From a virus: a stretch of DNA of 39,108 nt. The notes beneath the pieces were generated by a model that saw nothing but the letters and a program-made list of their open reading frames with translations, searched no databases and was not told the DNA's origin. A program made the position numbers and the translations under genes. The stretch spans positions 1-39,108 of the IMG/VR virus record IMGVR_UViG_3300029265_000561. One strand, given 5' to 3'. Shown here in pieces: positions 3,001-38,658 of the stretch; within the stretch, counting starts at the first letter, position 1; the number at the start of each line of letters is the position of its first letter.

Positions 3001-3646
3001 TAATATATTAGCTGTTTTAGGATTTGGAGATGATGAACCTAATGATGATGACAAAAACCTACTTAGAGCAGTCGTAATGGGTAACACACAATCAATACCA
3101 TTTATAGGAAGCATGGCGGTAGCCATAATGGACATTGTTGTATTAGAAAAAAGTAACACTTACGGAAGTGCAGTTTCAAGTGCACTTTTAGGCTCTTTAG
3201 ACAATGTTTCAAAAAACTTAATTACATTAAGTACATCTAATGATGTAAAAATGTTAAAAAGGGCAGAAGAAAACGTTTATACTGGTTTAGCTGGATTAAT
3301 AGGGGGAGTTCCTACTAAAATATTAGATTCTTTTTTAAGATTTGACGAAATATATTGGAATGATGAAGTAACGCAAAACGTTAAAGTGTGGAAGACTTTA
3401 GGATGGAGTGAATACCAAATAAACAAATCTATAGAAAAAAGTATATCTAGAATAGAAGGTGATAGACAAAGAGCAAAAGAAGAAGCAGCATACAAAAGAT
3501 CATTAATTAGATGGGATAAAAATGGTGGAGTTGATGTTTATGATAATTTTTACAAAATAAGTAAAAAAAATAAAGGTTCAAAGAGTAATAAACTACCTTC
3601 ACTACCTAGTACATCAATGGATAAACTTCCAAAACTACCTAACTAA
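2..3646 (+). CDS. Large internal virion / polyvalent protein, 3' part
   Basis: The reading frame is open from base 2, so the start lies upstream; a start near base 443 is only a TTG inside the frame. 1214 codons are visible. The first half is Lys/Glu/Asn-rich and looks like long coiled coil. The second half has hydrophobic stretches near 2270-2350, 2950-3025 and 3090-3150, between which lies a conserved-looking stretch with MFATSPIQNHQNAMYHW. The C-terminus is Pro/Leu-rich (KLPSLPS, KLPKLPN). Very long proteins with this make-up, next to terminase and portal genes, are usually DNA-ejection or large polyvalent proteins packaged in the head. That role is inferred from size, composition and position; no catalytic motif was recognised. 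Confidence 0.75.
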   Translation, partial: QQEEAVRSTKQKLIDKTNEKNKTEKGVKKALQDYIDANLSKAQALQADDADTNKLVKIVADAKTDINGLKAIQEIDALIAKLDTKYNNNKTELQKDRDKAKELENENKYQKSERTKIIKKYLKAVVQNKFLSEINFNDVLRINTLINLPLIAKSSTEILNKIDELAVNLETKYNESKSRNEEKRRVADQKIRDKKTSIKEARKAVLDFINDSFDNKTLSQIQVSDFKKLISKTKFEGKKTGTDAEKREKLNEVLLDITDTKLKLENKNTKNKIDKILDKKTRIKISGRKKGNLTTDEESEFLEGVKQNTSIKGSKGTVTPFKNTSISKIRDRINDLSDKLFVEQDKENRDVLKELELDVSIKILSANLVSNQEASILLEESLNSINEVYLEGRSKMKELKEQSSNETKKIITEVIKDVSISKNKKLTSTQIETEQNKIKGAVSRLFFRMFKGTGFIGNLDSLSSLLSRSEGESRDDSALVNLVNRAKNRRTNKNASIRNYNKALLNIHESIFGSQRKTDKALNKVHVFKAQRPTLKSIQDDSNTPSNREDVTHNLTVDKMLNVWMNSKNESLLEGLANEGFTAEVISEIDSILSEKEKTYAESLFLLFDEIHANESVVYKKMNFTELTKIPFYAGRLSRDGVSSNVQSNSLEDSRNSVNTTAHSSQKERLGSSLPIKAQSSTYLARQAIQESSHYTAFAEVHRDIKKLIGDNSFKKALENANPLTSDIAIEGIRAYVKNDLEQGGARGNKIVNFFGSNIAKTTLALSPKILLTQTISAFNAIADMPSNISLSERAEYILNIIENIKVFKQLLKDSEYLKSRYDIGGMERAALGLSDISKKQFVNSGNASLDARRKQAARFYKTAIDKSLVNVSIGDAIGVMGAVPNYRAYLDIYRKTMPEEQAKKKALKKFEAIADRAQQTITAEGKSELQKNPILRYFAMFATSPIQNHQNAMYHWRELNRARKGEGSKGSVGQNVYGVLNYQFFQPMLYTYISQMFVGNILAVLGFGDDEPNDDDKNLLRAVVMGNTQSIPFIGSMAVAIMDIVVLEKSNTYGSAVSSALLGSLDNVSKNLITLSTSNDVKMLKRAEENVYTGLAGLIGGVPTKILDSFLRFDEIYWNDEVTQNVKVWKTLGWSEYQINKSIEKSISRIEGDRQRAKEEAAYKRSLIRWDKNGGVDVYDNFYKISKKNKGSKSNKLPSLPSTSMDKLPKLPN

Positions 3647-6315: not shown

Positions 6316-6381
6316 TAGATTACCTAAATTAGCAACAATACAGAATATCAATTACTATTTTTACATATTAGAATTTAAACA

Positions 6382-11308: not shown

Positions 11309-14300
11309 ATGGCTAAGATAAAAAATAAAGATAGATACCCAGAAGACATAAGTATAACAGATAAAGATTACCTTATTGGTACTGATTCTGATGAAGGAAA
11401 CAGAACCAAGAATTATCCCATAAAGTCCATAGCCGAATATATCTATAAACAAATATCTGGTTTAGATCAAAACAATACAATAGTTGAAATTGAAACTTCA
11501 AATGAAAGCCTTAGTTTTTACGAAAATATATACGAAGCTACTAACAACTCTACTTTATTTGAGGTTTCAGCTTCCGAATTATTTGTAATATCTAATACAT
11601 TTACAGTTCAAGAAAGTGTTGGCTCATTTGCTTTTAGAACTGAATGGTGGGCTTTAAAAACAGGTAAAGGAACTTACGGATTTGGTTCTGGAACAGCCCT
11701 AGAACAAAAAGATTTTCTTTTTCTAAGATCACAACAAAGATCCCAATTAGCTACTTTGTCTAATTTACCTCCTAAAGTTGAGCAAATTAAATCTTTAGAC
11801 TTTAGCAATCCTTCTGAAAGTGTAAATATATCCTCCGTATCTTATAATGTGTTAAACAATAGAGATACCTACTTTGTAATATATGACGTAACGTTAAATG
11901 AAATAGGTGTAACCCCAAGTAAAACATATCGATTTACAGGAGATATAGGTACTTATGGGCAAGGAGCTACAAGTACAGTAGAATCAGATTTTTTATTAGT
12001 AGAAGATCAATCCACACCGTCTACAGTTACGACACCTAGAGCAATAGACATATCTACAGACGAAATATTAGGTTTATCTTCTACAAACGTACAAACTGCA
12101 CTTCTAGAAATATTAAATAAATTAACAATAGTAAAAATAACTGAAAATGGTAAAACAGGGTCTGGTCTTAAAGGAACAGACAGAAGCAACCACGTAGAAA
12201 TAGGAAAAGGAGCTGTAGACTTAAGTTCTCATAAAGTAGATGACCAGTCTTTTATACCAGATAACGGTTTCGTAGAGACTACAGGGGCAGGGGCAGAACA
12301 GTCTTATGCACATGGGGAAAATGTATTAATAGAAGAAGGTGCATACGGAGCAATAGTTACTGGCTACAATAATGTTGTAAGACCTTTTGCTTATTTTGCA
12401 AATGTATCGGGAAGAGACAACGAGGTAATTAAAGGCTTTAATGACTTTGTAAGCGGAGTTAATTGTATAGTAGACACATCTATAGGTTACAGTTCAACTT
12501 TTGGTAGAAACCATTTAAACAAAGGAAATTACTCTTCTTTACATGGTACTGGTTTAATAAGTCGAGGACCGAGCCACGTAGTCGGTATATCAAACAAAGA
12601 TGATAAACCTACTACTAGTGTACTTACTGGTGAAGTAGCTTTATTCATAGTTGGAAATGGAACAGTACATACAGGCAATATTAAAAACTTACCAGCCATA
12701 AGAAGCGATGCATTTTTAGTTTGGAAGTCTGGAAAAGTTCAAGCACCTTCCTTAACAACAGATTTAATTGATAGCGAAAAATCTTTAATTACTAAAGAAT
12801 ACTTAGAAGAAAACTCTGTTCAAAAAACTGGCGAGACTAGTCAAAGTGTTGAAGGATCGTTAAATATTGGTGAAGTTACCTTAAATAATTTGAATGATGT
12901 ATCTGTAAATACTAATGAAGTAAAAATAGATGGATTTGGTTTTATAGGTAACAGAGGAAATATATATTTCACTAATGAATTAGCAACAGGAAAACTTTTA
13001 TTTGGTATTGGAGGTACGCACAACCAAAATGTGAAAATGACCATTGATGCTAATGGTAAAGTAGCAGCGGATAAGTTTGCAGGTAACGGATCAAATTTAA
13101 CAAACTTAAAAGCACCTTTTGCTTCTTACACAAGCGAATCGGCTTTATTCAACGATCAATCAGAACAAGAAACTGGCTACGCCTACTTTGTAACAGGCTT
13201 AGATAACATTTACGTTTACTTAGGCACTACTAACGGAGATGCAGATGATTACAAGATATATAGCGGAGCAGAAAATTCTGTTCAAAAGATTATCGGTACT
13301 GTTCAAGAAATAGATGCAGACTTAGAGATAAACGGACTTAGGGTTGGGCGTGGTAGTGGTGATATAGATTCAAATACTGCATTAGGTAAAGCGTCTCTTC
13401 TTAACAACACTACAGGAAGTCAAAATACAGCGATTGGTACATCTTCTCTAATTTATAACACTACAGGTAACTCAAACACAGCAACTGGTAGAAGCTCTTT
13501 GTATAATAACACTACAGGAAATGACAATACAGCAAGTGGTAAAGACTCTTTACTTTATAATACTACAGGAGGTGGTAACACAGCAAGTGGTAAAGATTCT
13601 TTAAGAAACAATACAACAGGAATTTACAACACAGCAAGCGGTCAAGCATCTTTATACAGTAACACGGCAGGATCAAACAACACAGCAAGTGGTGTAAGTT
13701 CTTTATACAATAACACCACAGGATCAGACAACACAGCAAATGGTCAAGATTCTTTAAGTCGTAACACCACAGGAAACAACAACACAGCAACTGGAAAAAG
13801 TTCTTTACAAAATAACACGACAGGATCAAGCAACACAGCTAGTGGTAGAAACAGTTTGCTTTTAAATACCACAGGAAATTACAACACAGCGAGCGGTCAA
13901 GCGTCTTTACAAAACAACACTACAGGAAGTCAAAACACAGCAAATGGTCAATCGTCTTTACAAAACAACACCACAGGAAGTCAAAACACAGCAAATGGGG
14001 TAGCTGCTTTAAGACAAAACACCACAGGATCAAGCAACACAGCAAGTGGTATAAGTTCTTTAAAAAACAATACAACAGGATCAGGTAACACAGCTAATGG
14101 TGGGGCAGCTTTACAAGCTAATACTACAGGAGGTAACAACACAGCAAGCGGTGTAAATTCTTTAAGTAGTAACACCACAGGAAATGACAACACAGCGAGT
14201 GGAGTCAGTTCTTTAAGTAGTAACACCACAGGAAGTGAAAACACAGCAACTGGAAAAAGTTCTTTACAAAATAACACGACAGGATCAAAAAACACAGCAA

Positions 14301-17300
14301 GTGGTAAAAATTCTTTATATGCTAACACCACAGGAAGTGGCAATACAGCGAGTGGTCAAGATTCTTTATTCCTTAACACTACAGGAAGTGATAACACAGC
14401 AAGCGGAAAAAGCTCTTTAAGACTTAATACCACAGGAAGTTACAACACAGCAAGTGGTGGAAATTCTTTATATGCTAACACCACAGGGAGCCAAAATACA
14501 GCAACTGGGGTAAATTCTTTATTTAGTAACACTACAGGAGCTAACAACACAGCAAATGGTATGTTTTCTTTAAGACAAAACACCACAGGAAGTAATAACA
14601 CAGCTAACGGCTTAGGTTCTTTATTAAGTAACACTACAGGGAATCAAAACACAGCAACTGGAAAAGACAGTTTAATATCAAACACCACAGGAGATAGTAA
14701 CACAGCTAACGGCTTAAGTTCTTTAAGATTTAACACTACAGGAAATAGTAACACAGCTAATGGTGTTAACTCCCTGTACAGTAACACAGGAGGTCAACAA
14801 AACACAGCAACTGGTGTAAATTCTTTATTTGCTAACACAGTCGGAGGTTCAAATACAGCAAGTGGTTTCGGTAGTTTAGGTTCTAACACCACAGGAAATG
14901 AGAATACAGCAACTGGTCAAAACTCTTTAAATAAAAACACTACAGGAAATAGCAACACAGCAAGCGGTGTAAACTCTTTAAGGCTTAATACATCAGGAGG
15001 TAGTAATACTTCAAGTGGTGAGAGTTCTTTAAGAGAGAACACTACAGGAAGCAATAATACTGCAAGTGGTAAAGGCTCTCTACAAAGCAACACAATAGGA
15101 TTTAGTAACACAGCAAGTGGGGTAAACTCTTTAAATGCTAACACCGTAGGAGGTAACAACACAGCAAGTGGTGTAAATTCTTTATACACCAACACAACAG
15201 GAAATTTCAACACGGCAAGCGGTGCAAATTCTTTAAGAAACAACACAACAGGAACTTTCAACACAGCAAGTGGGGCAAGTTCTTTAGAAAACAACACCAC
15301 AGGAGGTAGTAACACAGCAAGTGGGGTATTTTCTTTATACAATAACACTACAGGAAGTAATAACACTACAAGTGGTGTAAATTCTTTGAGAGAAAACACC
15401 ACAGGAAGTGGTAATACTGCAAGTGGTGAAAGTGCTTTAAGATTGAACACTACAGGAAGCAATAATACTGCGAGTGGGGTAAGTTCTTTATTTTTTAACA
15501 CCACAGGATCAGAAAACACAGCAACTGGCACAAGTGCTTTAACTCGTAATACCACAGGAAATAGGAACACAGCATTTGGTAGAAGCTCTTTGTTTAATAA
15601 CACAACAGGATCAAGCAACACAGCAAGTGGTGTAAATACTTTATACAACAACACAATAGGATCAAACAACACAGCAAATGGTATTGATTCTTTATTTAGT
15701 AACACCACAGGAAATGACAACACAGCAAGTGGAGTAGGTGCTTTACGAGCAAACACAACAGGAAATTACAACACAGCAAGTGGTGTAAGTTCTTTATACA
15801 GTAATACTACAGGAACTCAAAATACTGCAACTGGGTTAAGTTCTTTAAAGAACAACACGACAGGAAGCAGTAATACAGCTAACGGTAAAGGTTCACTAGA
15901 GAAAAACACTACGGGAAATGATAATACAGCGAGTGGTGAAACTTCTTTAATCAATAACACTACAGGATCAAGCAACACAGCAAGCGGTAAAGCTTCTCTA
16001 CAAAGTAACACCACAGGAAATAACAACACGGCAAATGGTAGAGCTTCCTTAAATAGAAACACTACAGGAAGCGATAATACTGCAAGTGGGATAAATGCTT
16101 TATATTATAACACCACAGGATCAAAGAACACAGCAAGCGGATCAGGATCTTTAGTTTTTAATACAACAGGTAACTCAAACACTGCAAGTGGTCAGGGTTC
16201 TTTACAAAGTAACACCACAGGAAATGACAACACGGCAAGTGGTGCAGGCTCTTTATATAATAACACCACAGGAAGTAGCAACACTGCAAGTGGCTTAAAT
16301 GCTTTAAGAAACAACACCACAGGAGATTACAACACGGCAATCGGGGTAAGTGCTTTGAACTTTAACACCACAGGAACTGCAAACACAGCAAGTGGCGAAA
16401 GTTCTTTAAGATTCAACACTACAGGAGATTACAACACAGCAAGTGGTGCAAATTCTTTGAGAAACAACACGACAGGAAGTGGTAATACAGCAAGTGGTAG
16501 AGAGTCTTTGTATTTTAACACTACAGGAAGTTCAAACACATCAAGTGGTCAAGGCTCTTTACAAAGCAACACTACAGGAAGTAACAACACAGCAAGTGGT
16601 TTTGGATCTTTAAATAGTAATATCAATGGTTACAACAACACAGCAACTGGTAGAGACTGTCTAAAAAGTAACACTACAGGACACAGTAACACATCAAATG
16701 GTACATACTCCCTAAGCAATAACACGATAGGAAATAACAACACAGCGAGTGGTGTAAGCAGTTTAAACCAAAACACAACAGGATCAGAAAATACCGCAAT
16801 CGGTAGAGACTCTTTAAATCAAAATACGTCAGGAAATAAGAACACTTCTGTTGGTGAAGGCTCTATGAGAAACAACACCACAGGATCAAACAACACAGCA
16901 AGTGGTCAAGGTTCTTTATACAGCAACACTATAGGAAATTATAACACAGCAAGTGGTAGAGATTCTTTAAAAGAAAACACTACAGGAAGTAATAACACAG
17001 CGAGTGGTTATGGCTCTTTAAGTAGTAACACTACAGGAGACAATAACACCGCAAGTGGTTTAAGCTCTTTACAAAACAACACAACAGGAGATAACAACAC
17101 GGCAAGTGGTGTAAATTCTTTATACAGTAACACTACAGGAGATGAAAACACAGCAAATGGTAGAAGTTCTTTATTTAAAAACACCACAGGAAGTTTCAAC
17201 ACAGCAAGTGGTACATACTCTTTACAAAACAACACTACAGGAAGTCAAAATACAGCAAGTGGTGCAAATTCTTTATTCAAAAACACCACAGGATCAAGCA

Positions 17301-18721
17301 ACACAGCAACTGGTTTAAGTTCTTTGTACTGGAATAGTACAGGATCAAGCAACACAGCAACTGGTAAAGATTCTTTAAATAAAAACACTACAGGATCAAA
17401 CAACACAGCAACTGGCTTAAATGCTTTATACTATAACACCACAGGAGATGGCAACACAGCAAGTGGGGCAAACTCTTTACTCTTTAACACTACAGGAAAC
17501 AACAACACAGCAAGTGGTGTAAGTTCTTTAAGACTTAATACCACAGGTCACTCAAACACAGCAAGTGGTGTAAATTCTTTAACAACTAACACTACAGGAT
17601 TTAATAACACAGCAAATGGTACAAGTTCTTTAAGTAGCAACACCACAGGAAGTAATAACACAGCAAATGGTGAGGACTCTTTATACCATAATCTTACAGG
17701 TTATGACAACACAGCAAGTGGGGTAGAATCTTTAAATAAAAACACGACAGGATCAAGCAACACTGCAACTGGTAAGCAATCTTTAAAATTTAACACAACA
17801 GGAGATAGTAACACAGCGAGTGGTGTATTTTCTTTATTGAGTAACACCACAGGAACTGGTAATACTGCAAACGGAAAAGACTCTTTGTTATTAAATACAG
17901 CAGGAAGTTACAACACAGCAAGTGGTACAAACTCTTTAAGAAATAACACCACAGGAAATGACAATAATGGTTATGGTTTAAGTGCTTTGCTTTCAAACAC
18001 CACAGGAAGTAAGAACTTTGCTGGCGGTGCAAACTCTGGACGTTTTATTCAAAATGGTACTACTGAAAACACTATCACAAATAATTCAGTCTTTTTAGGA
18101 TCAAATACAAAGGCTTTAGCAGACAATCAAACGAATCAGATAGTTATGGGGCATGATGCAATAGGTCATGGCTCTAATACCGCTACAATAGGAAACGACG
18201 ACATAGAAGACACCTACTTAAAAGGAATAGTACATGGTGACGGTTCGGAACTTAAAAACTTAAAAGCACCTTTTGCTCCTTATGACAATGTATCAGCTCT
18301 GTTTAATGATCAAACAGGACAAGAAACTGGCTACGCATATTATGTAAGTGGGCTAGATAGTATTTACGTTTATCTAGGCACTACTAATGGAGATGCAACC
18401 GACTATCAAGTATTTACAAACACAAAAACAACAAAGACAATAGAAGAAGACACTTATACAATTTTAGCAACAGATGTATATCAATATTTAGAGTTTACAA
18501 AAAACTGCGTTGTAACTGTGCCTTTAGGTCTTTCAGAGAACTTAGAGTTTCAAGGTGAACAAGTAGGTACAGGAGAAGTTAGTTTTGTTTATGAAAATAC
18601 TGGAACACTTAACAAGCCAGTAAGTTGCCAAAACAAAGTAGAAGGTCAATTTGGTGTTTTTGGAATAAGAACTAAAGGGAATGATATTGCAACCTTATTA
18701 GGATATTTAAAACTCGCATAA
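11309..18721 (+). CDS. Giant repetitive tail fibre / adhesin
   Basis: 2470 residues. Residues 1-45 form a virion-anchor-like segment (MAKIKNKDRY, DYLIGTD, TKNY) that recurs in the 401-residue protein at 21626. Residues about 60-590 are beta-rich, with a YadA-head-like stretch at about 325-430. A 60-residue module at about 592-651 is repeated after the array. Residues about 689-2235 are about 90 copies of a 17-residue repeat, TGxxNTAxGxxSLxxNT, probably a trimeric beta-roll stalk. The last 100 residues (about 2370-2470) form a compact beta domain of the kind that caps phage fibres. It likely projects from the tail to bind the host surface. The Asn/Thr/Ser/Gly bias is extreme. Confidence 0.85.
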   Translation: MAKIKNKDRYPEDISITDKDYLIGTDSDEGNRTKNYPIKSIAEYIYKQISGLDQNNTIVEIETSNESLSFYENIYEATNNSTLFEVSASELFVISNTFTVQESVGSFAFRTEWWALKTGKGTYGFGSGTALEQKDFLFLRSQQRSQLATLSNLPPKVEQIKSLDFSNPSESVNISSVSYNVLNNRDTYFVIYDVTLNEIGVTPSKTYRFTGDIGTYGQGATSTVESDFLLVEDQSTPSTVTTPRAIDISTDEILGLSSTNVQTALLEILNKLTIVKITENGKTGSGLKGTDRSNHVEIGKGAVDLSSHKVDDQSFIPDNGFVETTGAGAEQSYAHGENVLIEEGAYGAIVTGYNNVVRPFAYFANVSGRDNEVIKGFNDFVSGVNCIVDTSIGYSSTFGRNHLNKGNYSSLHGTGLISRGPSHVVGISNKDDKPTTSVLTGEVALFIVGNGTVHTGNIKNLPAIRSDAFLVWKSGKVQAPSLTTDLIDSEKSLITKEYLEENSVQKTGETSQSVEGSLNIGEVTLNNLNDVSVNTNEVKIDGFGFIGNRGNIYFTNELATGKLLFGIGGTHNQNVKMTIDANGKVAADKFAGNGSNLTNLKAPFASYTSESALFNDQSEQETGYAYFVTGLDNIYVYLGTTNGDADDYKIYSGAENSVQKIIGTVQEIDADLEINGLRVGRGSGDIDSNTALGKASLLNNTTGSQNTAIGTSSLIYNTTGNSNTATGRSSLYNNTTGNDNTASGKDSLLYNTTGGGNTASGKDSLRNNTTGIYNTASGQASLYSNTAGSNNTASGVSSLYNNTTGSDNTANGQDSLSRNTTGNNNTATGKSSLQNNTTGSSNTASGRNSLLLNTTGNYNTASGQASLQNNTTGSQNTANGQSSLQNNTTGSQNTANGVAALRQNTTGSSNTASGISSLKNNTTGSGNTANGGAALQANTTGGNNTASGVNSLSSNTTGNDNTASGVSSLSSNTTGSENTATGKSSLQNNTTGSKNTASGKNSLYANTTGSGNTASGQDSLFLNTTGSDNTASGKSSLRLNTTGSYNTASGGNSLYANTTGSQNTATGVNSLFSNTTGANNTANGMFSLRQNTTGSNNTANGLGSLLSNTTGNQNTATGKDSLISNTTGDSNTANGLSSLRFNTTGNSNTANGVNSLYSNTGGQQNTATGVNSLFANTVGGSNTASGFGSLGSNTTGNENTATGQNSLNKNTTGNSNTASGVNSLRLNTSGGSNTSSGESSLRENTTGSNNTASGKGSLQSNTIGFSNTASGVNSLNANTVGGNNTASGVNSLYTNTTGNFNTASGANSLRNNTTGTFNTASGASSLENNTTGGSNTASGVFSLYNNTTGSNNTTSGVNSLRENTTGSGNTASGESALRLNTTGSNNTASGVSSLFFNTTGSENTATGTSALTRNTTGNRNTAFGRSSLFNNTTGSSNTASGVNTLYNNTIGSNNTANGIDSLFSNTTGNDNTASGVGALRANTTGNYNTASGVSSLYSNTTGTQNTATGLSSLKNNTTGSSNTANGKGSLEKNTTGNDNTASGETSLINNTTGSSNTASGKASLQSNTTGNNNTANGRASLNRNTTGSDNTASGINALYYNTTGSKNTASGSGSLVFNTTGNSNTASGQGSLQSNTTGNDNTASGAGSLYNNTTGSSNTASGLNALRNNTTGDYNTAIGVSALNFNTTGTANTASGESSLRFNTTGDYNTASGANSLRNNTTGSGNTASGRESLYFNTTGSSNTSSGQGSLQSNTTGSNNTASGFGSLNSNINGYNNTATGRDCLKSNTTGHSNTSNGTYSLSNNTIGNNNTASGVSSLNQNTTGSENTAIGRDSLNQNTSGNKNTSVGEGSMRNNTTGSNNTASGQGSLYSNTIGNYNTASGRDSLKENTTGSNNTASGYGSLSSNTTGDNNTASGLSSLQNNTTGDNNTASGVNSLYSNTTGDENTANGRSSLFKNTTGSFNTASGTYSLQNNTTGSQNTASGANSLFKNTTGSSNTATGLSSLYWNSTGSSNTATGKDSLNKNTTGSNNTATGLNALYYNTTGDGNTASGANSLLFNTTGNNNTASGVSSLRLNTTGHSNTASGVNSLTTNTTGFNNTANGTSSLSSNTTGSNNTANGEDSLYHNLTGYDNTASGVESLNKNTTGSSNTATGKQSLKFNTTGDSNTASGVFSLLSNTTGTGNTANGKDSLLLNTAGSYNTASGTNSLRNNTTGNDNNGYGLSALLSNTTGSKNFAGGANSGRFIQNGTTENTITNNSVFLGSNTKALADNQTNQIVMGHDAIGHGSNTATIGNDDIEDTYLKGIVHGDGSELKNLKAPFAPYDNVSALFNDQTGQETGYAYYVSGLDSIYVYLGTTNGDATDYQVFTNTKTTKTIEEDTYTILATDVYQYLEFTKNCVVTVPLGLSENLEFQGEQVGTGEVSFVYENTGTLNKPVSCQNKVEGQFGVFGIRTKGNDIATLLGYLKLA
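13082..13261 (+). repeat. Fibre module, copy 1 (before the repeat array)
   Basis: Encodes about 60 residues starting GNGSNLTNLKAPF and containing ETGYAYFVTGLD and VYLGTTNGDA. It matches copy 2 at 18236-18415 at about 44 of 60 residues, aligned by eye without gaps. The two copies bracket the 17-residue repeat array. Confidence 0.8.
13373..18010 (+). repeat. Tandem array of about 90 51-bp units
   Basis: In-frame coding repeats with period 51 bases (17 residues, TGxxNTAxGxxSLxxNT). The span divided by 51 gives about 91 units. Variation concentrates in three dipeptide positions (after TG, after the first G following NTA, and after SL) and in Ser/Thr before that Gly. Period is kept throughout the units inspected, with no frameshift. 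Confidence 0.9.
18236..18415 (+). repeat. Fibre module, copy 2 (after the repeat array)
   Basis: Encodes about 60 residues starting GDGSELKNLKAPF, homologous to copy 1 at 13082-13261. It is preceded by TATIGNDDIEDTYLKGIVHG, a segment type often seen where fibre shafts meet tip domains, and followed by the C-terminal beta domain. Confidence 0.8.
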
Positions 18722-18722
18722 T

Positions 18723-19484
18723 ATGAACATATCAATCATAGCAGCAAGTAGATTAAGAGCAGTTAATGCTTTGCAAGAGTTAAAAAACGCTTGTAGAATA
18801 TATATGACTTTAGACAACTCTAGCAGAAACGGTCTAATAATAACGCCTGAAAAAGGAAACGGGACAATTTCTAGTTCAGCTAGTAACTCCGCTACTGGAG
18901 TAATTAATCAAGGCGCATTAATCGACACGGTATCAAAAATACTACTAGGTAATGCTAACATGAATACAAACAACGGATTAATTAATAGTAATGTTTTTTC
19001 GTTTAGTTTTTGGAGAAAGCCCTATGTATCGCCAAACGCTAGCGGCAATTTTGAATTAATGGCTTTAGACAATTCCAGCATGAACTACTCTAGTTATATG
19101 AATAATAATTCTACCCTAGATATAGGTATAGCAACCAGAGCCACAAACGGAGCAGCTAATAATTATAGAATAAACAGTTATGCGTTATCGTCTGGTTTAC
19201 AGAGTGGTTTTAACCACATTTACGGACATTATAACACGTCAAATAATGAATCTAAACTATTTGTTAACGGGGTTGAGCAAACTAGTTTTACTATTTTTTC
19301 GCTAGGATCACAAAATACCGTTTCTGGAAATGCTTTGGTTAGAGTTGGCTCTCACAGTGTTATAAACAACAGTTTCATATTAAAAACAGCAATAGACGAA
19401 GTGGGTTTTTTTTACGGAATTGAAGCTACACAAGAAAGAGCAAATATTTTATATAATAGCGGTAACGGCTTACAACTTTTTTAA
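18723..19484 (+). CDS. LamG / concanavalin-A-like adhesion protein
   Basis: 253 residues. The pattern of a laminin-G_3 jelly roll is visible: FSFSFWRKP strand, NNYRINSYAL, GHYN with SKLFVNGVEQTSF, then IDEVGFFYGIEATQERANILYNSGNG near the end, the usual LamG_3 closing helix. Such domains bind carbohydrate or act as fibre or baseplate side domains. The start lies 1 base after the giant fibre stop, so it is probably a fibre tip or accessory protein made with it. The ligand is not predictable. Confidence 0.7.
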   Translation: MNISIIAASRLRAVNALQELKNACRIYMTLDNSSRNGLIITPEKGNGTISSSASNSATGVINQGALIDTVSKILLGNANMNTNNGLINSNVFSFSFWRKPYVSPNASGNFELMALDNSSMNYSSYMNNNSTLDIGIATRATNGAANNYRINSYALSSGLQSGFNHIYGHYNTSNNESKLFVNGVEQTSFTIFSLGSQNTVSGNALVRVGSHSVINNSFILKTAIDEVGFFYGIEATQERANILYNSGNGLQLF

Positions 19485-19924: not shown

Positions 19925-20719
19925 ATGAAAATTAGACACGAAGGAACAGCAAAAGTAACTTACACAGATTGGAGTGAAAGAATGTCGGGATTCATGCTAT
20001 CCCCAAACAGAATAGATAGTTCAAACCCACCAGAAAATAAAGATTCTTTCCCAAGAATTGATATTGACATTGAAAGAATAATTGACGGCTTTGACGCAAA
20101 AGTTAGATACTACCAAGTTTTTAACCCCAATGACGATTTAACACAAGAACAAATCGATCAAATATTGAGCGATATGCTAGTTCAAGCGAATGCTGAAAGT
20201 GTATATTTCAATAATGATGCACAATTTAGAAACGAAGAAGCTTTAGTTTTAAATGCAAAAAATGAAATATTAAACGAACAAAATGCAGTTTTAAATGCAG
20301 AAAATCAAGCAATAAACGAAGAAAACGAAGCACAGCAAGAAGACGTAGACGAGGAAGAAGAGGTACAACCAACAGACGAGCAACCAACAGACGAGGAAGA
20401 GGTAGACCAAGAGCCTATCCCAATGATACCTATTATAGAAATGGTAGAAATGATAGCTCTTATGGATCTAATACCTTTAGACGACATGGTTCTACCAGAA
20501 GGAGTATTGAGAGCCAGATTAATATTTAGCTACCGTTACAAGTCAAGCTTAGAAAGTACTCAAGAGATGTTATTGGCAGCAAGCGCACACCCTAGCGTAG
20601 ATGGTCTTGTTGGTCTAGAACTGATAAGAAAGTTAATGGAAGTTATGACTATAGCAGACATACTTGAAAACAACGTGTTTGGATTAACAAAAGAGCAATG
20701 GGTACAAAAAGTAATATAA
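19925..20719 (+). CDS. Acidic protein of unknown function in the tail block
   Basis: 264 residues. The N-terminal 95 residues look globular (FPRIDIDIERIIDGFDAKVRYYQVF). Residues about 100-140 are a helical Asn/Glu/Ala repeat (NEEALVLNAKN, NEQNAVLNAEN, INEENEAQ). Residues about 141-160 are an Asp/Glu/Pro/Thr linker containing PTDEQPTDEEEV. The last 100 residues form a Met/Leu/Ile-rich helical domain. Possibly a virion assembly or scaffold protein; no family recognised. The next gene starts 22 bases before its end. Confidence 0.6.
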   Translation: MKIRHEGTAKVTYTDWSERMSGFMLSPNRIDSSNPPENKDSFPRIDIDIERIIDGFDAKVRYYQVFNPNDDLTQEQIDQILSDMLVQANAESVYFNNDAQFRNEEALVLNAKNEILNEQNAVLNAENQAINEENEAQQEDVDEEEEVQPTDEQPTDEEEVDQEPIPMIPIIEMVEMIALMDLIPLDDMVLPEGVLRARLIFSYRYKSSLESTQEMLLAASAHPSVDGLVGLELIRKLMEVMTIADILENNVFGLTKEQWVQKVI

Positions 20720-20964
20720 TTAAAGTTGTACTTGCACATGATAAATTAAAGCATTTCTTTTTAGGATTCTTTATTTTTGAGTTTGCAAGTACATTTACTT
20801 GTTTATTAAATTCTCTTATAGTAACTTTATCTGTTGCTTGTCTTTGGGAGTTAGGTCAAGTTGCAACTAAAAAAGGAAAAGGAGAACTTTTAGATATATT
20901 CTATACGGTTTTACCAGCATTACTAATCTATTTAAAATATATTTTACAAAATGGCACTATTTAG
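20698..20964 (+). CDS. Small membrane protein with HDKxxH motif
   Basis: 88 residues. H14-D15-K16-x-x-H19 starts a hydrophobic helix (FFLGFFIFEFAST); a second hydrophobic segment, a WELGQ stretch and a third segment (IFYTVLPALLIYL) follow. The DKxxH...G...E...D layout is shared by a widespread family of small phage and bacterial membrane proteins of unknown function (from memory, not searched). It overlaps both flanking genes (22 and 14 bases), so translation is probably coupled. Confidence 0.6.
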   Translation: MGTKSNIIKVVLAHDKLKHFFLGFFIFEFASTFTCLLNSLIVTLSVACLWELGQVATKKGKGELLDIFYTVLPALLIYLKYILQNGTI

Positions 20965-21439
20965 CGAATCAAATTATTTTAAACAATCCAAGGCAAGCCT
21001 TGATTTAGGACTAGAAGATATGATCTTCACTCTAGATCTTAGAGGTTTTAACGAAGAACAAAACGGTTATTTTATATTAGCTTATGAATACTTTTCTTTA
21101 TTCCCAGAAAAGTATGACGGAGCTACACAAAGCCAAGACTTAGTAGACATACCTTCTCGTCAAAAAGGTTTTGACGGTTTAGAAATATCAACTATGTTAC
21201 ATGATTGGATATACATATTTTTAAAAGCTAGATACTCTGTTAAAACCATGAGAATAGCAGATAAAATAATGGAGTCAACAATGAGAAAATTTAGTAAAAG
21301 CGGTTTTGAGATAAGTTGGAGATTATTTAGATTAGCAATAATTAGAAGACCATTTGCTATATTTAATCAAATTAAGAGTTATTTTAAAGTATCACCTTAT
21401 TTATATAAAATAGCCAAGGTTTCAAAAACATTCCTTTAA
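20951..21439 (+). CDS. DUF1353-like phage protein (tentative)
   Basis: 162 residues. The segment LEISTMLHDWIY followed by RIADKIMESTMRKFSKSGFEISWRLFRLAI resembles the DUF1353 pattern (HDWLY, then AD, then a helix pair) found in phage tail or lysis neighbourhoods. The N-terminus is beta-like (DMIFTLDLRGF) and contains FPEKYDG. The resemblance is from memory and could be superficial. Confidence 0.5.
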   Translation: MALFSESNYFKQSKASLDLGLEDMIFTLDLRGFNEEQNGYFILAYEYFSLFPEKYDGATQSQDLVDIPSRQKGFDGLEISTMLHDWIYIFLKARYSVKTMRIADKIMESTMRKFSKSGFEISWRLFRLAIIRRPFAIFNQIKSYFKVSPYLYKIAKVSKTFL

Positions 21440-29257: not shown

Positions 29258-29435
29258 TTGTAGTATTTAAAATTCCTTGAAAATAACCGCAAGACGATTT
29301 TACAACACCGTATAAAGAAAATGCTTTATTCATACCTTCTATAACACCTGTAAGTCTTTGGTTTTCTTTTTCAAGGGTTTGCACTTTATTTAAAACACTT
29401 TCCCATTCTTGGTCAGTAATAGTATATTTTTTCAT
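29211..29435 (-). CDS. Small coiled-coil protein with C-terminal zinc site
   Basis: 74 residues. Residues about 10-35 are coiled coil (WESVLNKVQTLEKENQRL). The end has CKTCGMEFHEH, a plausible C-x2-C...H-x-H zinc site, with another Cys at about 49. It overlaps the helicase start by 47 bases. No family recognised. Confidence 0.6.
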   Translation of the reverse strand: MKKYTITDQEWESVLNKVQTLEKENQRLTGVIEGMNKAFSLYGVVKSSCGYFQGILNTTSATKCKTCGMEFHEH

Positions 29436-29495
29436 TGTTTAATTATTTAAGTTATTATTTTGTCGCACTTTCCTTATACCATACGTTGGTAGTAA

Positions 29496-29705
29496 TTATT
29501 TTAACCTATTCATACTACCATCTTTACAATAGACAATTATATCATTAAGGTCTGTGGTAAATCTATTAACACCTCCTTTGTTTTCGCATTCTTTGCAAAT
29601 TTTTTCAAGGTCATATTCGTAAAATGTCTGTTTACAAGCGGTTAAAAGAACTACAACCAACACCATATAAAGTGCATAGCTAATTTTTGTTTTTAAGTTT
29701 TTCAT
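29496..29705 (-). CDS. Small phage lipoprotein
   Basis: 69 residues. A lipoprotein signal is clear: basic start (MKNLKTK), hydrophobic core (ALYMVLVVVLL) and lipobox LTAC with Cys at residue 24. The mature 46 residues contain three more Cys (CKEC and YCKDG). Small lipoproteins expressed early by phages often block receptors or superinfecting phages, but also serve in lysis; its place in the leftward operon favours the first. Function is inferred. Confidence 0.65.
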   Translation of the reverse strand: MKNLKTKISYALYMVLVVVLLTACKQTFYEYDLEKICKECENKGGVNRFTTDLNDIIVYCKDGSMNRLK

Positions 29706-29751
29706 TTTCTGTTTATTTAAGTTTTTTAATTATTCAATGTTTCGTTCTGTT

Positions 29752-29799
29752 TTAGGTCGCTACGCCACCTGACCACCATACAATTATTTCATTTACCAT
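29752..29799 (-). pseudogene. Remnant of a PP-loop (PAPS-reductase-like) gene
   Basis: A 15-codon frame ending at TAA: MVNEIIVWWSGGVAT. The strand plus SGGV is the ATP-pyrophosphate loop that opens PAPS-reductase and related phage enzymes, where it is normally followed by S or A and some 200 residues. Here it stops at once and no continuation is seen in any frame downstream. It overlaps the 46-residue gene by 7 bases. It probably marks a deletion scar. Confidence 0.45.
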
Positions 29800-31447: not shown

Positions 31448-31477
31448 TTGAATTTCCTTCATTAGGTTGTATATTTG
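31448..31477 (+). promoter_or_regulatory. Consensus Bacteroidota promoter for the early region
   Basis: TTG at 31448-31450, exactly 19 bases, then TATATTTG at 31470-31477: the full TTG-N19-TAnnTTTG consensus. Transcription would start near 31483-31486, at the 5' side of the tRNA-like RNA, and continue into the early gene array. Confidence 0.7.
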
Positions 31478-31483
31478 TGCATG

Positions 31484-31614
31484 CTCTTGCGTGAGCTGGT
31501 TGTTCTTTGAAATCTTGGTCTTTCCCCTAATGCAATAGGGCAAACTACCAAAACGAGCGTAAACGGTTAACAGGGTGCAAATCCTTGTTTGTGGTTCGAT
31601 TCCATTAATACGCA
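31484..31614 (+). ncRNA. tRNA-like structured RNA candidate
   Basis: Closing stem TGCGTG (31488-31493) with TACGCA (31609-31614), including one G-U. Inside are a hairpin TTGGT/ACCAA enclosing CCCTA/TAGGG (about 31515-31551); a 7-bp stem with 7-base loop AACAGGG-tgcaaat-CCTTGTT (31569-31589), like an anticodon arm; and GTGG-ttcgatt-CCAT (31591-31605), a T-arm-like hairpin with the TTCGATT loop. There is no CCA and no normal D-arm. A shorter fold, 31557-31613 closed by GCGTA/TACGC, would be a D-armless tRNA. It may be a decayed tRNA or a leader RNA. Confidence 0.4.
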
Positions 31615-31637
31615 CTAAACAAATAAATTATACTATT

Positions 31638-33094: not shown

Positions 33095-33116
33095 ACGGTT
33101 AACCTTTAAAAACCGT
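33095..33116 (+). promoter_or_regulatory. Leader hairpin
   Basis: ACGGTT, 10-base loop, AACCGT in the 66-base gap before the ATG at 33144. Its 3' arm opens a 17-base direct repeat, AAAACCGTTTAAATAAT (33109-33125), found again at 33375-33391 across the end of the next gene. No U-tract follows, so it is not a terminator. Confidence 0.4.
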
Positions 33117-33143
33117 TTAAATAATATTATAAAAGACAAAATC

Positions 33144-33386
33144 ATGAAAACACAATCTTTACAATTAGCAGAATTTAAAAGGAAAGCAAATATTTTAATA
33201 GATGAAAAAGAAAGCCGTTTAATAAGTTACGATACAGAAGTCGCAACTTATAACCATACAAATAAAAAAGTAACTGTTAACGGTTGGTACAGTGCGACAA
33301 CTTCCCGACATATAAACGCCTTTTTAAAATTTTATGGACTTGATCCGATGAATAAAAAACAAATGCAAAAAGATAAAACCGTTTAA
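33144..33386 (+). CDS. Small conserved-type phage protein
   Basis: 80 residues. RLISYDTEVATYNHTNKKVTVNGWYSATTSRHINAFL has the S-x-TT-x-x-HI pattern found in many small Bacteroidota phage proteins of unknown function (recalled, not searched). The stop lies within the second copy of a 17-base direct repeat. Confidence 0.55.
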   Translation: MKTQSLQLAEFKRKANILIDEKESRLISYDTEVATYNHTNKKVTVNGWYSATTSRHINAFLKFYGLDPMNKKQMQKDKTV

Positions 33387-33409
33387 ATAATCTTACAAAA
33401 TAAAACATC

Positions 33410-35925: not shown

Positions 35926-36093
35926 ATGAAAACACAAATTTTAAAAAATCATAAAACAATAAAACTTATAAAATTTATTTGCCCTAATAATGGGATAAGT
36001 TACGGAGTTAAAACATTCTCAAAACTTGATAAAAGTTTAACCCTAGAAAAAGCAAAAGATCTTTTTTCTATACTTAAAAAATTACAAAGATGA
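35926..36093 (+). CDS. Small basic early protein, 55 residues
   Basis: MKTQILKNHKTIKLIKFICPNN, then GISYGVKTFSKLDKS and a helix (LEKAKDLFSILKKLQ). Its TGA overlaps the next ATG (ATGA). Function unknown. Confidence 0.5.
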   Translation: MKTQILKNHKTIKLIKFICPNNGISYGVKTFSKLDKSLTLEKAKDLFSILKKLQR

Positions 36094-36287
36094 TTAATAT
36101 TTGTTTACTTGAAAACTACGAAGACCAACCGCCAGCACTAGCAAAAATTTGCGAAAGCTGGAATAATAAAATCGAAAACGGTTTTAATTACCAAGACTGT
36201 GAGAAATTCAAAAAAGAAGTTGAAAATATAGGTTTTACTTTTGACTATGGACTTGACGCAATACCCTACGATTTGAAACCGCTATAA
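36090..36287 (+). CDS. Small acidic early protein, 65 residues
   Basis: MINICLLENYEDQPPALAKICESWNNK, then EKFKKEVENIGFTFDYGLDAIPYD. Acidic with several aromatics; no family recognised. The class A form of the repeated leader begins at its stop codon. Confidence 0.5.
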   Translation: MINICLLENYEDQPPALAKICESWNNKIENGFNYQDCEKFKKEVENIGFTFDYGLDAIPYDLKPL

Positions 36288-36304
36288 TTCTATCAAAAAA
36301 CACT

Positions 36305-36324
36305 CTTTACCAATTCACGCAAAA
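36305..36324 (+). repeat. Repeated leader element, copy 1 (class A)
   Basis: CTTTACCAATTCACGCAAAA, exact copy, 10 bases before the ATG at 36335. Preceded by AACCGCTATAATTCTA and CAAAAAACACT, shared with copy 3. Confidence 0.8.
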
Positions 36325-36334
36325 ATTAAACAAA

Positions 36335-36544
36335 ATGAAAATAAAATTAAACAAAGAAATAAGCCAAGGCTTAAAAGTTTTTAAATTACGAACAGTTGAT
36401 GTCATTCTTTTTTTAATTTCAAAAGGATTTGAAACAAAAAAAGAACCGTTTTCCACAAGCTTGCAAGAGCTAACATTTGAAAATAAAAAGGTAAAGAAGT
36501 GTTTTTTTGACACTTGCGAAAATACTATAATAATTAAATTTTAA
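36335..36544 (+). CDS. Small basic early protein, unknown
   Basis: 69 residues; helical start (LNKEISQGLKVFKLRTVDVILFLISKGFE), then TSLQELTFENKKVKKCFF. Preceded by leader element copy 1. No family recognised. Confidence 0.5.
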   Translation: MKIKLNKEISQGLKVFKLRTVDVILFLISKGFETKKEPFSTSLQELTFENKKVKKCFFDTCENTIIIKF

Positions 36545-36548
36545 AAAA

Positions 36549-36770
36549 ATGAAGGTATCAAATTTTAAAACCGATGAACTAGAAACTTTTTATAAAAAAG
36601 ATGAAATATTTTTTTTTAACTATCGAAAAATATATAAATTAATAAGGCTAAAAAACGAATTTAGTTTTTCACACCTAAAGACTCACGACAAAAAGGAAGG
36701 ACTTCCCTACATGGGTAGAGGTAGATTTTTAGCAGCAAAAGAAAGTTTTTATTTAAAATTAACAACCTAA
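36549..36770 (+). CDS. Small basic early protein, unknown
   Basis: 73 residues, Phe/Tyr/Lys-rich (YKKDEIFFFNYRKIYKLIRL, HDKKEGLPYMGRGRFLAAK). It starts 4 bases after the previous stop and shares its transcript. No family recognised. Confidence 0.5.
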   Translation: MKVSNFKTDELETFYKKDEIFFFNYRKIYKLIRLKNEFSFSHLKTHDKKEGLPYMGRGRFLAAKESFYLKLTT

Positions 36771-36791
36771 AAAAACTCTTTAAATTTTAAC

Positions 36792-36811
36792 CTTTACCAA
36801 TTCACGCAAAA
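36792..36811 (+). repeat. Repeated leader element, copy 2 (class B)
   Basis: Exact CTTTACCAATTCACGCAAAA, 17 bases before the ATG at 36829. Preceded by a TTTAA-rich flank shared with copy 4, not by the ACACT flank of copies 1 and 3. Confidence 0.8.
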
Positions 36812-36828
36812 TTTTAAAATAAAACATC

Positions 36829-37113
36829 ATGAAAAACACAACTTACACGCAAGAAAAGGAAAACGCATGGGATTTAAAAACCTTAAAACAATGCGGATTT
36901 ATAGAACCGTACAAAGACAACACAAAAAAGGTTCAATTTATGAGATATTGTAATAATTGCCTATCCTACGGCTATAACATGAAAACAAATACTTTCTATT
37001 TATGTACAAGTCCTGTTTTGGAATGTTCTATTTTAGAAATATTAAGCAGCCATAATACGTTTGAAGAATTAAAAGAAGCTTTCTATATAGAACGAAATAA
37101 AATAATTTACTAA
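36829..37113 (+). CDS. Cysteine-containing early protein, unknown
   Basis: 94 residues. YCNNCLSYGYN and YLCTSPVLEC give two Cys pairs that could bind zinc. Helical end (SSHNTFEELKEAFYIERN). Leader AAAATAAAACATCATG. No family recognised. Confidence 0.55.
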   Translation: MKNTTYTQEKENAWDLKTLKQCGFIEPYKDNTKKVQFMRYCNNCLSYGYNMKTNTFYLCTSPVLECSILEILSSHNTFEELKEAFYIERNKIIY

Positions 37114-37124
37114 AGTAAAAAATC

Positions 37125-37421
37125 ATGAAATTATTAAAATCATCAAATTACAACAACAAAGAGGTAATTAATTTTATAAAATCATCATTTTCAATTATGG
37201 AGTCTTTAAAATGTGCTTTTCAAACAAGTCAGTTTTTAGAAATTGAACACGTTAAGGTATATAAAAAAAATGATATTTATATAGTTGAATTAACAAATAT
37301 TCAAAACGTAACCTTATGCTCTAATCACTCAAAAACAGAAAAAACAAAAAGCAGGACTAAGGCAATAAAATTTATTCTTTTAAATATAGGTATCATAAGT
37401 AAAAAAGACTTTAATAATTAA
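37125..37421 (+). CDS. Small basic early protein, unknown
   Basis: 98 residues; helix (NKEVINFIKSSFSIMESL), beta pair (LEIEHVKVYKKNDIYIVELTNI), basic loop (KTEKTKSRTKAIKF). No family recognised. Confidence 0.55.
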   Translation: MKLLKSSNYNNKEVINFIKSSFSIMESLKCAFQTSQFLEIEHVKVYKKNDIYIVELTNIQNVTLCSNHSKTEKTKSRTKAIKFILLNIGIISKKDFNN

Positions 37422-37448
37422 ACCGCTATAATTCTAGCAAAAAACACT

Positions 37449-37468
37449 CTTTACCAATTCACGCAAAA
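37449..37468 (+). repeat. Repeated leader element, copy 3 (class A)
   Basis: Exact CTTTACCAATTCACGCAAAA, 17 bases before the ATG at 37486. Preceded by the same AACCGCTATAATTCTA and CAAAAAACACT flank as copy 1. Confidence 0.8.
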
Positions 37469-37485
37469 TTTTAAAATAAAACATC

Positions 37486-37731
37486 ATGAAAACAAAAACA
37501 GTAGTAGTAAGAAATTTAATAACAGATAAAGAAGATATTTATTTTAACAGATATTCTTTATCTGAAAACATGGTAAGCTCAATTATAAACCTAACAGATC
37601 AAAATAGAAACCTAATGAATACTGAATTAAGACAGAAGTATTTAAAAAAAATAGAAATGATACCCAGTATTAAAGGAGGAAAAACAGCCTATTCCCAAGA
37701 ATTTGATTTAGTAGCGTCATTCAGAGATTAA
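37486..37731 (+). CDS. Small early protein, unknown
   Basis: 81 residues; beta start (KTVVVRNLITDKEDIYFN) and helical middle (SSIINLTDQNRNLMNTELRQKYLKK). AAAATAAAACATCATG leader after copy 3. No family recognised. Confidence 0.55.
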   Translation: MKTKTVVVRNLITDKEDIYFNRYSLSENMVSSIINLTDQNRNLMNTELRQKYLKKIEMIPSIKGGKTAYSQEFDLVASFRD

Positions 37732-37754
37732 AAAAAAACTATTTAAACTTTAAC

Positions 37755-37774
37755 CTTTACCAATTCACGCAAAA
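37755..37774 (+). repeat. Repeated leader element, copy 4 (class B)
   Basis: Exact CTTTACCAATTCACGCAAAA, 15 bases before the ATG at 37790, with the TTTAA-rich flank of copy 2. Confidence 0.8.
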
Positions 37775-37789
37775 CTTTAAAATAAAACG

Positions 37790-37993
37790 ATGGAAACCCA
37801 CGAAATAAAAATATTTAAATTAATGTCTCAAGGATTAACACAAATAGAAGTTAGTAAAGAGTTGATTAAGCAAGGATATAAGGCAAGCTCCTTATCTAGT
37901 ATAGAAAAAAAGATAAAATCCGTTAGGCGAGAGTACAAAGCAAATACTAATTTTAAACTAGCTTTAATTTTAAGAGCTAAAAAAATAATATAA
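37790..37993 (+). CDS. Stand-alone LuxR-type HTH protein
   Basis: 67 residues. IFKLMSQGLTQIEVSKELI, then SSLSSIEKKIKSVRREYKANTNFKLALI, follows the GerE/LuxR HTH pattern (GLTxxEIAxxL, SxxTVxxHIxxIxxKL) closely. There is no receiver or ligand domain. It likely binds DNA and may regulate phage early genes or host promoters. It overlaps nothing and starts after leader element copy 4. Confidence 0.7.
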   Translation: METHEIKIFKLMSQGLTQIEVSKELIKQGYKASSLSSIEKKIKSVRREYKANTNFKLALILRAKKII

Positions 37994-37995
37994 TT

Positions 37996-38367
37996 ATGAA
38001 ACCACTATACAAAGCAGAGAACACAGTTAAGAAAATAATTGATTTCGCAACACTATTAAACGAGGAAAGCGAAAAGCAAATAAAAGAATACAATGATTTT
38101 AATAATTATATTGAACCTTTATTTTTTGAAAAGTTCGGGCATAATTATGAGTCTTCATTAAGTTCTATCTACCAAGGAGAAAGAAGAGATTTTTTAAACT
38201 TTCACAAAGCAGAAATTAAAGCCATTAAAAAAAGACCTAAAAACTATACAAAAAAGCATGAAAAATTAAGAATGATATTAATTGAATACGGATGTAAAGA
38301 ATTTGGAGACTGTATAATTGATGAAATAAGCGAAGTTTTTAATGCCAAACTAACACCCATAATATAA
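37996..38367 (+). CDS. Helical early protein, unknown
   Basis: 123 residues, helical and charged (TVKKIIDFATLLNEESEKQIKEY, RRDFLNFHKAEIKAIKKRPK, KKHEKLRMILIEYGCKEFGD). It starts 2 bases after the HTH gene stop and is cotranscribed. No family recognised. Confidence 0.55.
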   Translation: MKPLYKAENTVKKIIDFATLLNEESEKQIKEYNDFNNYIEPLFFEKFGHNYESSLSSIYQGERRDFLNFHKAEIKAIKKRPKNYTKKHEKLRMILIEYGCKEFGDCIIDEISEVFNAKLTPII

Positions 38368-38405
38368 AACACTAAAAACATGAAAAATAAACCCCTAAAA
38401 ACACT

Positions 38406-38425
38406 CTTTAACAATTCACGCAAAA
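38406..38425 (+). repeat. Repeated leader element, copy 5 (class A, one mismatch)
   Basis: CTTTAACAATTCACGCAAAA, one base different from the other four copies, preceded by the AAAACACT-type flank of class A. It ends 11 bases before the in-frame ATG at 38437. Confidence 0.75.
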
Positions 38426-38436
38426 AAATCACATTT

Positions 38437-38658
38437 ATGGAAGTTATAATTAGTTCAGTACCTAAAAATTTAATTGACCAAGATCCAGAGCGATTTGTAA
38501 ACTGGTTTACAGAAATTATAAAATCTGAATTTTCAAATGAGATAGACTTATTTATGGAAATACGCAGAAACGAACACTACAAATGTAGTTTGGAAAAGCT
38601 ATTAATTAAAAAACCTTTATTAAACGCAAAGGATATAGCGTTTTACATTAACAGTTAA
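38437..38658 (+). CDS. Small early protein, unknown
   Basis: 73 residues from the ATG at 38437 (MEVIISSVPKNLIDQDPERF). An in-frame ATG at 38380 exists, but the 57 bases between are a leader-element copy, so the later start is preferred. Acidic helical middle (NWFTEIIKSEFSNEIDLF). No family recognised. Confidence 0.55.
   Translation: MEVIISSVPKNLIDQDPERFVNWFTEIIKSEFSNEIDLFMEIRRNEHYKCSLEKLLIKKPLLNAKDIAFYINS

Follow-up and report, generated by a model that had tools for sequence, protein, structure and literature searches.

The 20-mer CTTTACCAATTCACGCAAAA, repeated ahead of small genes in a phage gene array, is on balance probably a start-associated regulatory leader that has been reused as a joint for swapping genes, as judged from sequence comparison. 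The window, i.e. the whole stretch of DNA analysed here, is a 39.1-kb virus record and represents an incomplete phage genome. It contains five copies of the 20-mer, all on the plus strand; four are exact and one carries a single mismatch, as the preliminary description had stated. None of 100 dinucleotide shuffles contained a match (chance expectation 0). The 10–17 bases given there for the distance between copy and start codon are likewise confirmed, the individual values being 10, 17, 17, 15, and 11 nt:

36305..36324, plus strand: copy E1, exact, ends 10 nt before the ATG at 36335
36792..36811, plus strand: copy E2, exact, ends 17 nt before the ATG at 36829
37449..37468, plus strand: copy E3, exact, ends 17 nt before the ATG at 37486
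37755..37774, plus strand: copy E4, exact, ends 15 nt before the ATG at 37790
38406..38425, plus strand: copy E5, one mismatch (C6 to A), ends 11 nt before the ATG at 38437

The start of the gene behind E5 is taken as the ATG at 38437, because the longer alternative ORF, beginning at 38380, spans the element. When both strands of the window are scanned with a profile, copies E1–E5 score 31–33 bits; the runner-up (14.9 bits) is off-position. According to simple ATG-based ORF calls, which underlie the gap and spacing statistics, all five gaps of more than 40 nt between 36.0 and 38.5 kb contain a copy—a match that is partly circular, because element and spacer alone occupy at least 30 nt. Genes inside the units are 2–12 nt apart.

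The terminase and portal proteins encoded in the window match PHROG families. Since the terminase is 57% identical to that of Tenacibaculum phage Gundel_1 (Pachyviridae) and ~29% identical to those of Cellulophaga phages, the window is most likely a fragment of a Pachyviridae-like flavobacterial phage. A close relative is IMGVR_UViG_3300037325_000137 (hereafter G001; 78,375 bases with repeated ends), whose terminase is 96% identical to that of the window; its coordinates are given on the reverse complement (rc). Searches with four array proteins and the terminase returned no second close relative, and the comparison of elements rests on two genomes, the window phage and G001. The latter has five copies, located in a matching small-gene array and spaced as in the window:

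rc 9219, coding strand: exact copy, ends 12 nt before an ATG
rc 9426, coding strand: copy with 3 mismatches, ends 17 nt before an ATG
rc 10800, coding strand: exact copy, ends 10 nt before an ATG
rc 10974, coding strand: degenerate copy, ends 11 nt before an ATG
rc 12211, coding strand: copy with 1 mismatch, ends 10 nt before an ATG

All 10 copies in the two phages therefore lie on the coding strand 10–17 nt ahead of an ATG, a count whose members are not independent because the copies are related by descent. Positions at this distance make up 0.7% of the genome and ~3% of the coding strand of the array. A profile built from the copies assigns 21–33 bits to the ten and at most 15 bits to the rest of both genomes. 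So strict a placement ahead of ATGs suggests that the element has a part in starting expression, and we infer that it acts at initiation: a regulatory leader is favoured because a neutral repeat is not expected to keep a distance of 10–17 nt from the following ATG in all ten cases.

The motif search over the genome and its relatives proposed in the preliminary description yielded five copies each in the window and in G001. Absence from related phages, named there as a counter-argument, applies in part: the element is present in the closest relative, G001, but missing from more distant ones, namely Gundel_1, Cellulophaga phi13:2, IMG/VR 3300027852_000809, and the partial 3300035698_007137; a profile search likewise found no copy in Gundel_1 or in G003, a more distant relative. 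Scanning 2.9 million viral contigs for exact and degenerate copies returned G001 only, plus chance matches; a 17-letter degenerate match in 10 other viral contigs lacks the start-codon context. A weak match (E 0.02) in the human-gut phage MT835528 was rejected, the site being far from any start codon. A host origin of the 20-mer was also rejected, as 84,980 genomes gave 21 scattered, single, chance-like matches in many phyla. As far as the collections show, the 20-mer is specific to one phage lineage and confined to one small-gene array. We note that Gundel_1 harbors another short repeated leader, AAAACAACCTTA, a few nt before four start codons (positions 865, 1341, 11999, and 15330; a fifth copy lies near 74781). 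It is possibly that phage's own start-associated sequence and is too short to interpret.

The ten genes directly downstream of the element in the two phages are mutually unrelated. In the window, the element heads the following small genes:

36335-36544 and 36549-36770, plus strand: two small genes after E1, no homologue found in G001
36829-37113 and 37125-37421, plus strand: two small genes after E2
37486..37731, plus strand: small gene after E3, no homologue found in G001
37790..37993, plus strand: gene after E4 for a 67-aa small helical protein (phrog_6776), G001 orthologue 90% identical and without element
38437..38658, plus strand: small gene after E5, G001 orthologue 86% identical and preceded by a decayed version of the element, ATTTAATAATTAACTAAAA

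Three of the genes headed by the element in the window (36829, 37790, and 38437) thus have G001 orthologues that lack an intact copy; the orthologue of 36829 is 98% identical, sits at a different place, and has no element. E1 and the G001 copy at rc 9219 share the same upstream gene (36090 and rc 9004, respectively) and precede unrelated downstream genes. Since the downstream genes are unrelated and their orthologues are found without an intact element, the 20-mer tracks positions and junctions rather than genes; and because orthologous genes exist without it, it is not essential to any given gene.

The sequences flanking the copies re-assort. Upstream, two classes of flank can be distinguished: AAAAACACT ahead of E1, E3, and E5, and ACTnTTTAAAnTTTAAC ahead of E2 and E4. 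E1 and E3 additionally have AAACCGCTATAATTCTA in common (at 36276 and 37420). Three segments are relevant here:

36276..36304, plus strand: left flank of E1, consisting of the last codons of gene 36090-36287 (K P L stop, AAACCGCTATAA) plus 17 nt
37420..37448, plus strand: orphan copy of the E1 left flank ahead of E3, joined to the stop codon of gene 37125-37421, which is unrelated
36812..36835, plus strand: translation-start region forming the right flank of E2, matching 37469-37492 behind E3 at 24 of 24 positions

For every copy, the 30 nt on its left and the 24 nt on its right were compared; unrelated pairs agree at ~8–12 positions, and random upstream pairs in the array have a mean of 12.4/24 with a maximum of 19. 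E1 and E3 agree at 28/30 positions on the left and 10/24 on the right, E2 and E3 at 11/30 and 24/24, respectively. E3 is a chimera: its left side is that of E1 and its right side that of E2, the two meeting inside the shared 20-mer. The gene tail at 37420..37448 is a relic of an exchange. Between the two phages, E1 and rc 9219 agree at 24/30 positions on the left, 12/24 on the right, and 20/20 in the core, the upstream gene being shared; E2 and rc 9426 agree at 7/30 and 21/24. Homology between the window and G001 begins or ends at elements (36090-36346, 36808-37104, and 37790-38007). Nothing constant among the copies is found to the left of the element: two G001 copies start 1 nt after the preceding stop codon, and one overlaps the end of the preceding gene.

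These results bear on two proposals of the preliminary description. Its A-B-A-B-A pattern of flanks survives insofar as the two classes are real, but the alternation does not, as the flanks in G001 differ and the right side of E3 groups with E2. An alternating code was rejected, since left and right classes re-assort independently and the flank shared by E1 and E3 is the tail of gene 36090-36287, with its relic at E3; the same origin explains the longer sequence AACCGCTATAATTCTA reported there. Its suggestion of a recombination seam, on the other hand, gains support from the re-assorted flanks and from the homology breaks at elements between the two phages.

The reading that we favour, a regulatory leader reused as a joint, would combine these observations as follows. 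The 20-mer would be a module that directly precedes the translation-start region of the leading gene in a small-gene unit and helps to switch on expression of the unit. As one and the same 20-mer precedes many unrelated genes, recombination between two copies would combine the left part of the first with the right part of the second, such that small accessory genes are exchanged and each keeps a working leader. The junctions may have been made by a protein that anneals short homologies: G001 encodes an ERF-family protein, and judging from this gene content an Erf-like annealing protein is a plausible agent of such joins. A more specific version, in which the 20-bp joint is at once an expression signal and a preferred crossover site served by the phage's own short-homology annealing system, appears rather improbable. 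If true, the phage could cycle small accessory genes through a plug-and-play array that resembles a cassette array and needs neither attC sites nor a site-specific recombinase.

As to the layer at which the element acts, transcription initiation (a promoter or activator site for host polymerase and a phage factor) is a reasonable candidate that falls short of probable, the RNA level or translation a more tentative one; the remainder falls to a seam without regulatory function or to other explanations. Specifically, the 20-mer could be a second-wave phage promoter, recognised by host RNA polymerase that an unrecognised phage factor redirects, with transcription starting just downstream and leaving a leader of 10–17 nt. 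We regard this as possible, if somewhat less than an even prospect. Position and orientation of the element fit, as do the units of 1–3 genes; a leader of 10–17 nt is normal in flavobacteria (median 24 nt, PMC9723704), and the precedent of the intergenic repeats of halovirus HF2, which turned out to be promoters (PMC8707807), favours this reading. The small-gene array as a whole has a separate upstream promoter:

31448..31477, plus strand: host-type (Bacteroidota sigma-A) promoter, TTG-N19-TATATTTG, heads the whole small-gene array

This promoter (window letters TTGAATTTCCTTCATTAGGTTGTATATTTG) is conserved in G001 at rc 5618-5647. It leaves room for a second promoter class, and it also counts against a regulatory leader in that the array is already headed by a conserved promoter. 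No Bacteroidota sigma-A promoter (TTG-N17-23-TAnnTTTG) was found on the coding strand at any of the elements; the preliminary description, which had stated that the element is not the TAnnTTTG promoter, is right for the plus strand. A second-wave promoter is thus opposed by the absence of a -7 box (TAnnTTTG or TAnnTTGY) and of a constant -33 region, and by the scan of ~25 G001 proteins (a part of its proteins, the 3044-aa one included), which revealed no phage RNA polymerase or sigma factor. The copies share no constant partner box on their upstream side, which a promoter of the sigma type would require; this weighs against the regulatory leader in general. On the minus strand, a host-type promoter TTG-N17-TATTTTTG covering the element in antisense direction matches exactly in two G001 copies (minus 10790 and 12201), but it is missing from the five window copies and the remaining G001 copies, and its genome-wide match count equals the shuffled expectation; a minus-strand sigma-A promoter was rejected for want of conservation among copies, and this reading is very improbable. 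Downstream of the promoter at 31448-31477, the window contains at ~31480-31625 a tRNA-like 3' half (GGTTCGATTCC...) with a possible acceptor stem, which is missed by ARAGORN and Rfam and absent in G001; a similar GGTTCGATTCC stretch occurs in Gundel_1 ahead of the first early gene.

Control at the level of translation or RNA is a weaker candidate, in which the unstructured, G-poor leader would provide a stand-by site for ribosomes or a target for a phage RNA-binding protein or small RNA. Bacteroidota ribosomes do not rely on Shine-Dalgarno pairing, and hence the usual ribosome-binding reading is inapplicable. To our knowledge, the first 16 conserved letters of the 20-mer have no ribosomal partner, which we count against this reading. 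To the right of the element lies the ordinary translation-start region of the phage, with AAAATAAAACATCATG occurring at genes with and without element; neighbouring genes that start with this generic region alone argue in the same direction. The contact with the translation-start region, together with the lack of a constant upstream box, nevertheless favours the RNA level. All five window leaders are predicted to be nearly unstructured by RNA folding, and degenerate copies keep the 3' half, beside the start region, better. An A-run located at -14 to -11 enhances initiation in F. johnsoniae (PMC6847099), and a 10-nt spacer places the terminal AAAA of the element exactly at -14 to -11. The SAS repeats of Cluster K phages have been proposed to act in translation initiation (PMC3203893). 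An RNA hairpin was rejected, none being conserved in the leaders, and an Rfam search gave no match. No convincing complementary RNA was found either: the search for a complementary small RNA resulted in one 11-nt site (G001 rc ~19056-19075), which is close to chance and was rejected.

The preliminary description had also considered a site for the adjacent protein encoded at 37790, assigned there to the LuxR type. The assignment is unsupported and the proposal weakened: the product matches only PHROG 6776 (function unknown), a LuxR family search gave no match, and the predicted model (three helices, mean pLDDT 80) has no significant match in a structural search. That the 20-mer is an operator for this small helical protein is consistent with the three predicted helices and with the gene lying in the array in both phages, although co-occurrence is uninformative because the two phages share most of the array. 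A test for a dimeric-repressor operator found no dyad symmetry in the 20-mer, only the central AATT being self-complementary, and the G001 orthologue's own gene has no element; we therefore consider an operator quite unlikely.

Finally, the 20-mer might be purely a recombination seam. In that case a repeat without function would have spread by duplication and been kept identical by gene conversion, and its position at start codons would only reflect which exchanges at gene borders are viable. The chimeric flanks, the orphan gene tail, the homology breaks at elements, and the existence of degenerate copies are all compatible with such a seam, and the identity of the copies could in part derive from recent duplication and gene conversion rather than from function. 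A further argument comes from gene 33144-33386, which likewise lies between direct copies of its own tail, with no 20-mer present. A neutral repeat, however, need not stand in one orientation at this distance from an ATG in ten of ten cases, and the core was kept between the two phages while the flanks changed; a seam devoid of function is therefore unlikely, if far from negligible. With respect to gene 33144-33386, the direct copies of AAAACCGTTTAAATAA are located at 33109-33124 and 33375-33390, the downstream copy including the gene's own stop codon. Its G001 orthologue (rc 6375-6608) has similar flanking letters, and the layout equals that of the orphan gene tail at E3, minus the 20-mer.

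Several phage groups are known to carry start-associated repeats, most of which have no assigned function. Among the nearest kinds are SAS (13 bp, 3–7 bp from the start, with a Shine-Dalgarno core) and ESAS (with inverted repeats), found in Cluster K mycobacteriophages and Cluster EF Microbacterium phages; in actinobacterial phages, SAS and similar repeats precede start codons by 3–30 bp (PMC3203893, PMC7302621). Like the 20-mer, SAS and ESAS are short, asymmetric repeats in one orientation, located just before the starts of non-structural genes after large gaps; they are specific to a phage group and stand ahead of unrelated gene families whose members occur with or without the repeat. The 20-mer resembles SAS in being asymmetric, in one orientation, confined to non-structural genes, and absent from hosts and other phages apart from chance-like single hits. 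It differs from SAS in length (20 bp), distance (10–17 nt), and the lack of a Shine-Dalgarno sequence (no AGGAG), and from ESAS in having no inverted repeats, its flank classes being direct and without a conserved hairpin. Re-assortment of flanks is not described for SAS in the consulted parts of both papers. Repeats 22–30 bp before starts are also reported in Cluster EC (Quhwah) and 14–22 bp in Cluster EG (Hyperion) of Microbacterium phages (PMC7302621). These resemble the 20-mer in placement, copy number (8–12), and small-gene region, and the EG repeat is conserved though the surrounding genes differ; yet the sequences are unrelated, the host phylum is different, and the Hyperion repeat, unlike the 20-mer, is an inverted repeat. 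The intergenic repeats of HF2 (29–58 bp, with archaeal TATA/BRE parts), for which experiments established promoter function (PMC8707807), are also leader-type, virus-specific sequences between early or middle genes and fall into two classes; the 20-mer has no TATA/BRE parts.

With regard to exchange, the 20-mer can be set beside two further systems. Flanks re-assort at the element and gene content changes there between relatives, as would be looked for in a seam or mobile regulatory cassette. In T4-type phages, mobile regulatory cassettes reportedly consist of an early promoter and a stem-loop, and Arbiol and colleagues are said to have described in 2010 how such a regulatory sequence at gene borders mediates the exchange of neighbouring genes (cited, for instance, in PMC4177764). 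The 20-mer is alike in its place at gene borders and in the exchange of neighbours, but differs from these cassettes, as they are said to be built, in having neither a stem-loop nor a recognised promoter. Integron attC sites carry RYYYAAC/GTTRRRY core sites and a foldable palindrome. As in the 20-mer array, single small genes are exchanged at short repeated sites; in sequence and folds, however, the 20-mer has no core sites and no palindromic structure, and no dedicated recombinase is implied. The 20-mer thus apparently belongs among the start-associated phage repeats, outside the SAS family proper, as an example from Bacteroidota. The finding overturns nothing and rests on two genomes; the traces that exchange has left within a short regulatory repeat are unusually clear and bear on how phages may swap small accessory genes without loss of expression.

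Elsewhere in the two genomes, several features were observed. G001 contains at rc 14.2-20.6 kb an integron-like stretch of about a dozen small plus-strand ORFs separated by gaps of 60–160 nt, with paired motifs such as ..ATTGTTAGCCACCG [gene] GGTGGCTAACGG.. and GTTAGGCAC [gene] GTGCCTAACG. Beside it, at rc 20626-21435, a 269-aa tyrosine recombinase is encoded (Phage_integrase and SAM_4), for which XerA/XerD and integron-integrase models score below cut-off. In the window, 29435-29496 and 29705-29793 (minus strand) are possible leftover integron-like sites. Integrons in phages have been reported (PMC9892861); flavobacterial phages are not mentioned there. The first ORF of the window (2-3646) is the 3' part of a gene whose G001 version encodes the protein of 3044 aa, for which a family search gave no match better than chance. 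The window also encodes a 2470-aa protein (11309-18721) with ~90–100 tandem 17-residue repeats (51 nt each, NTTGSxNTASGxxSLxx) located at 13.3-18.3 kb; the matching ORF in G001 comprises 342 aa only.
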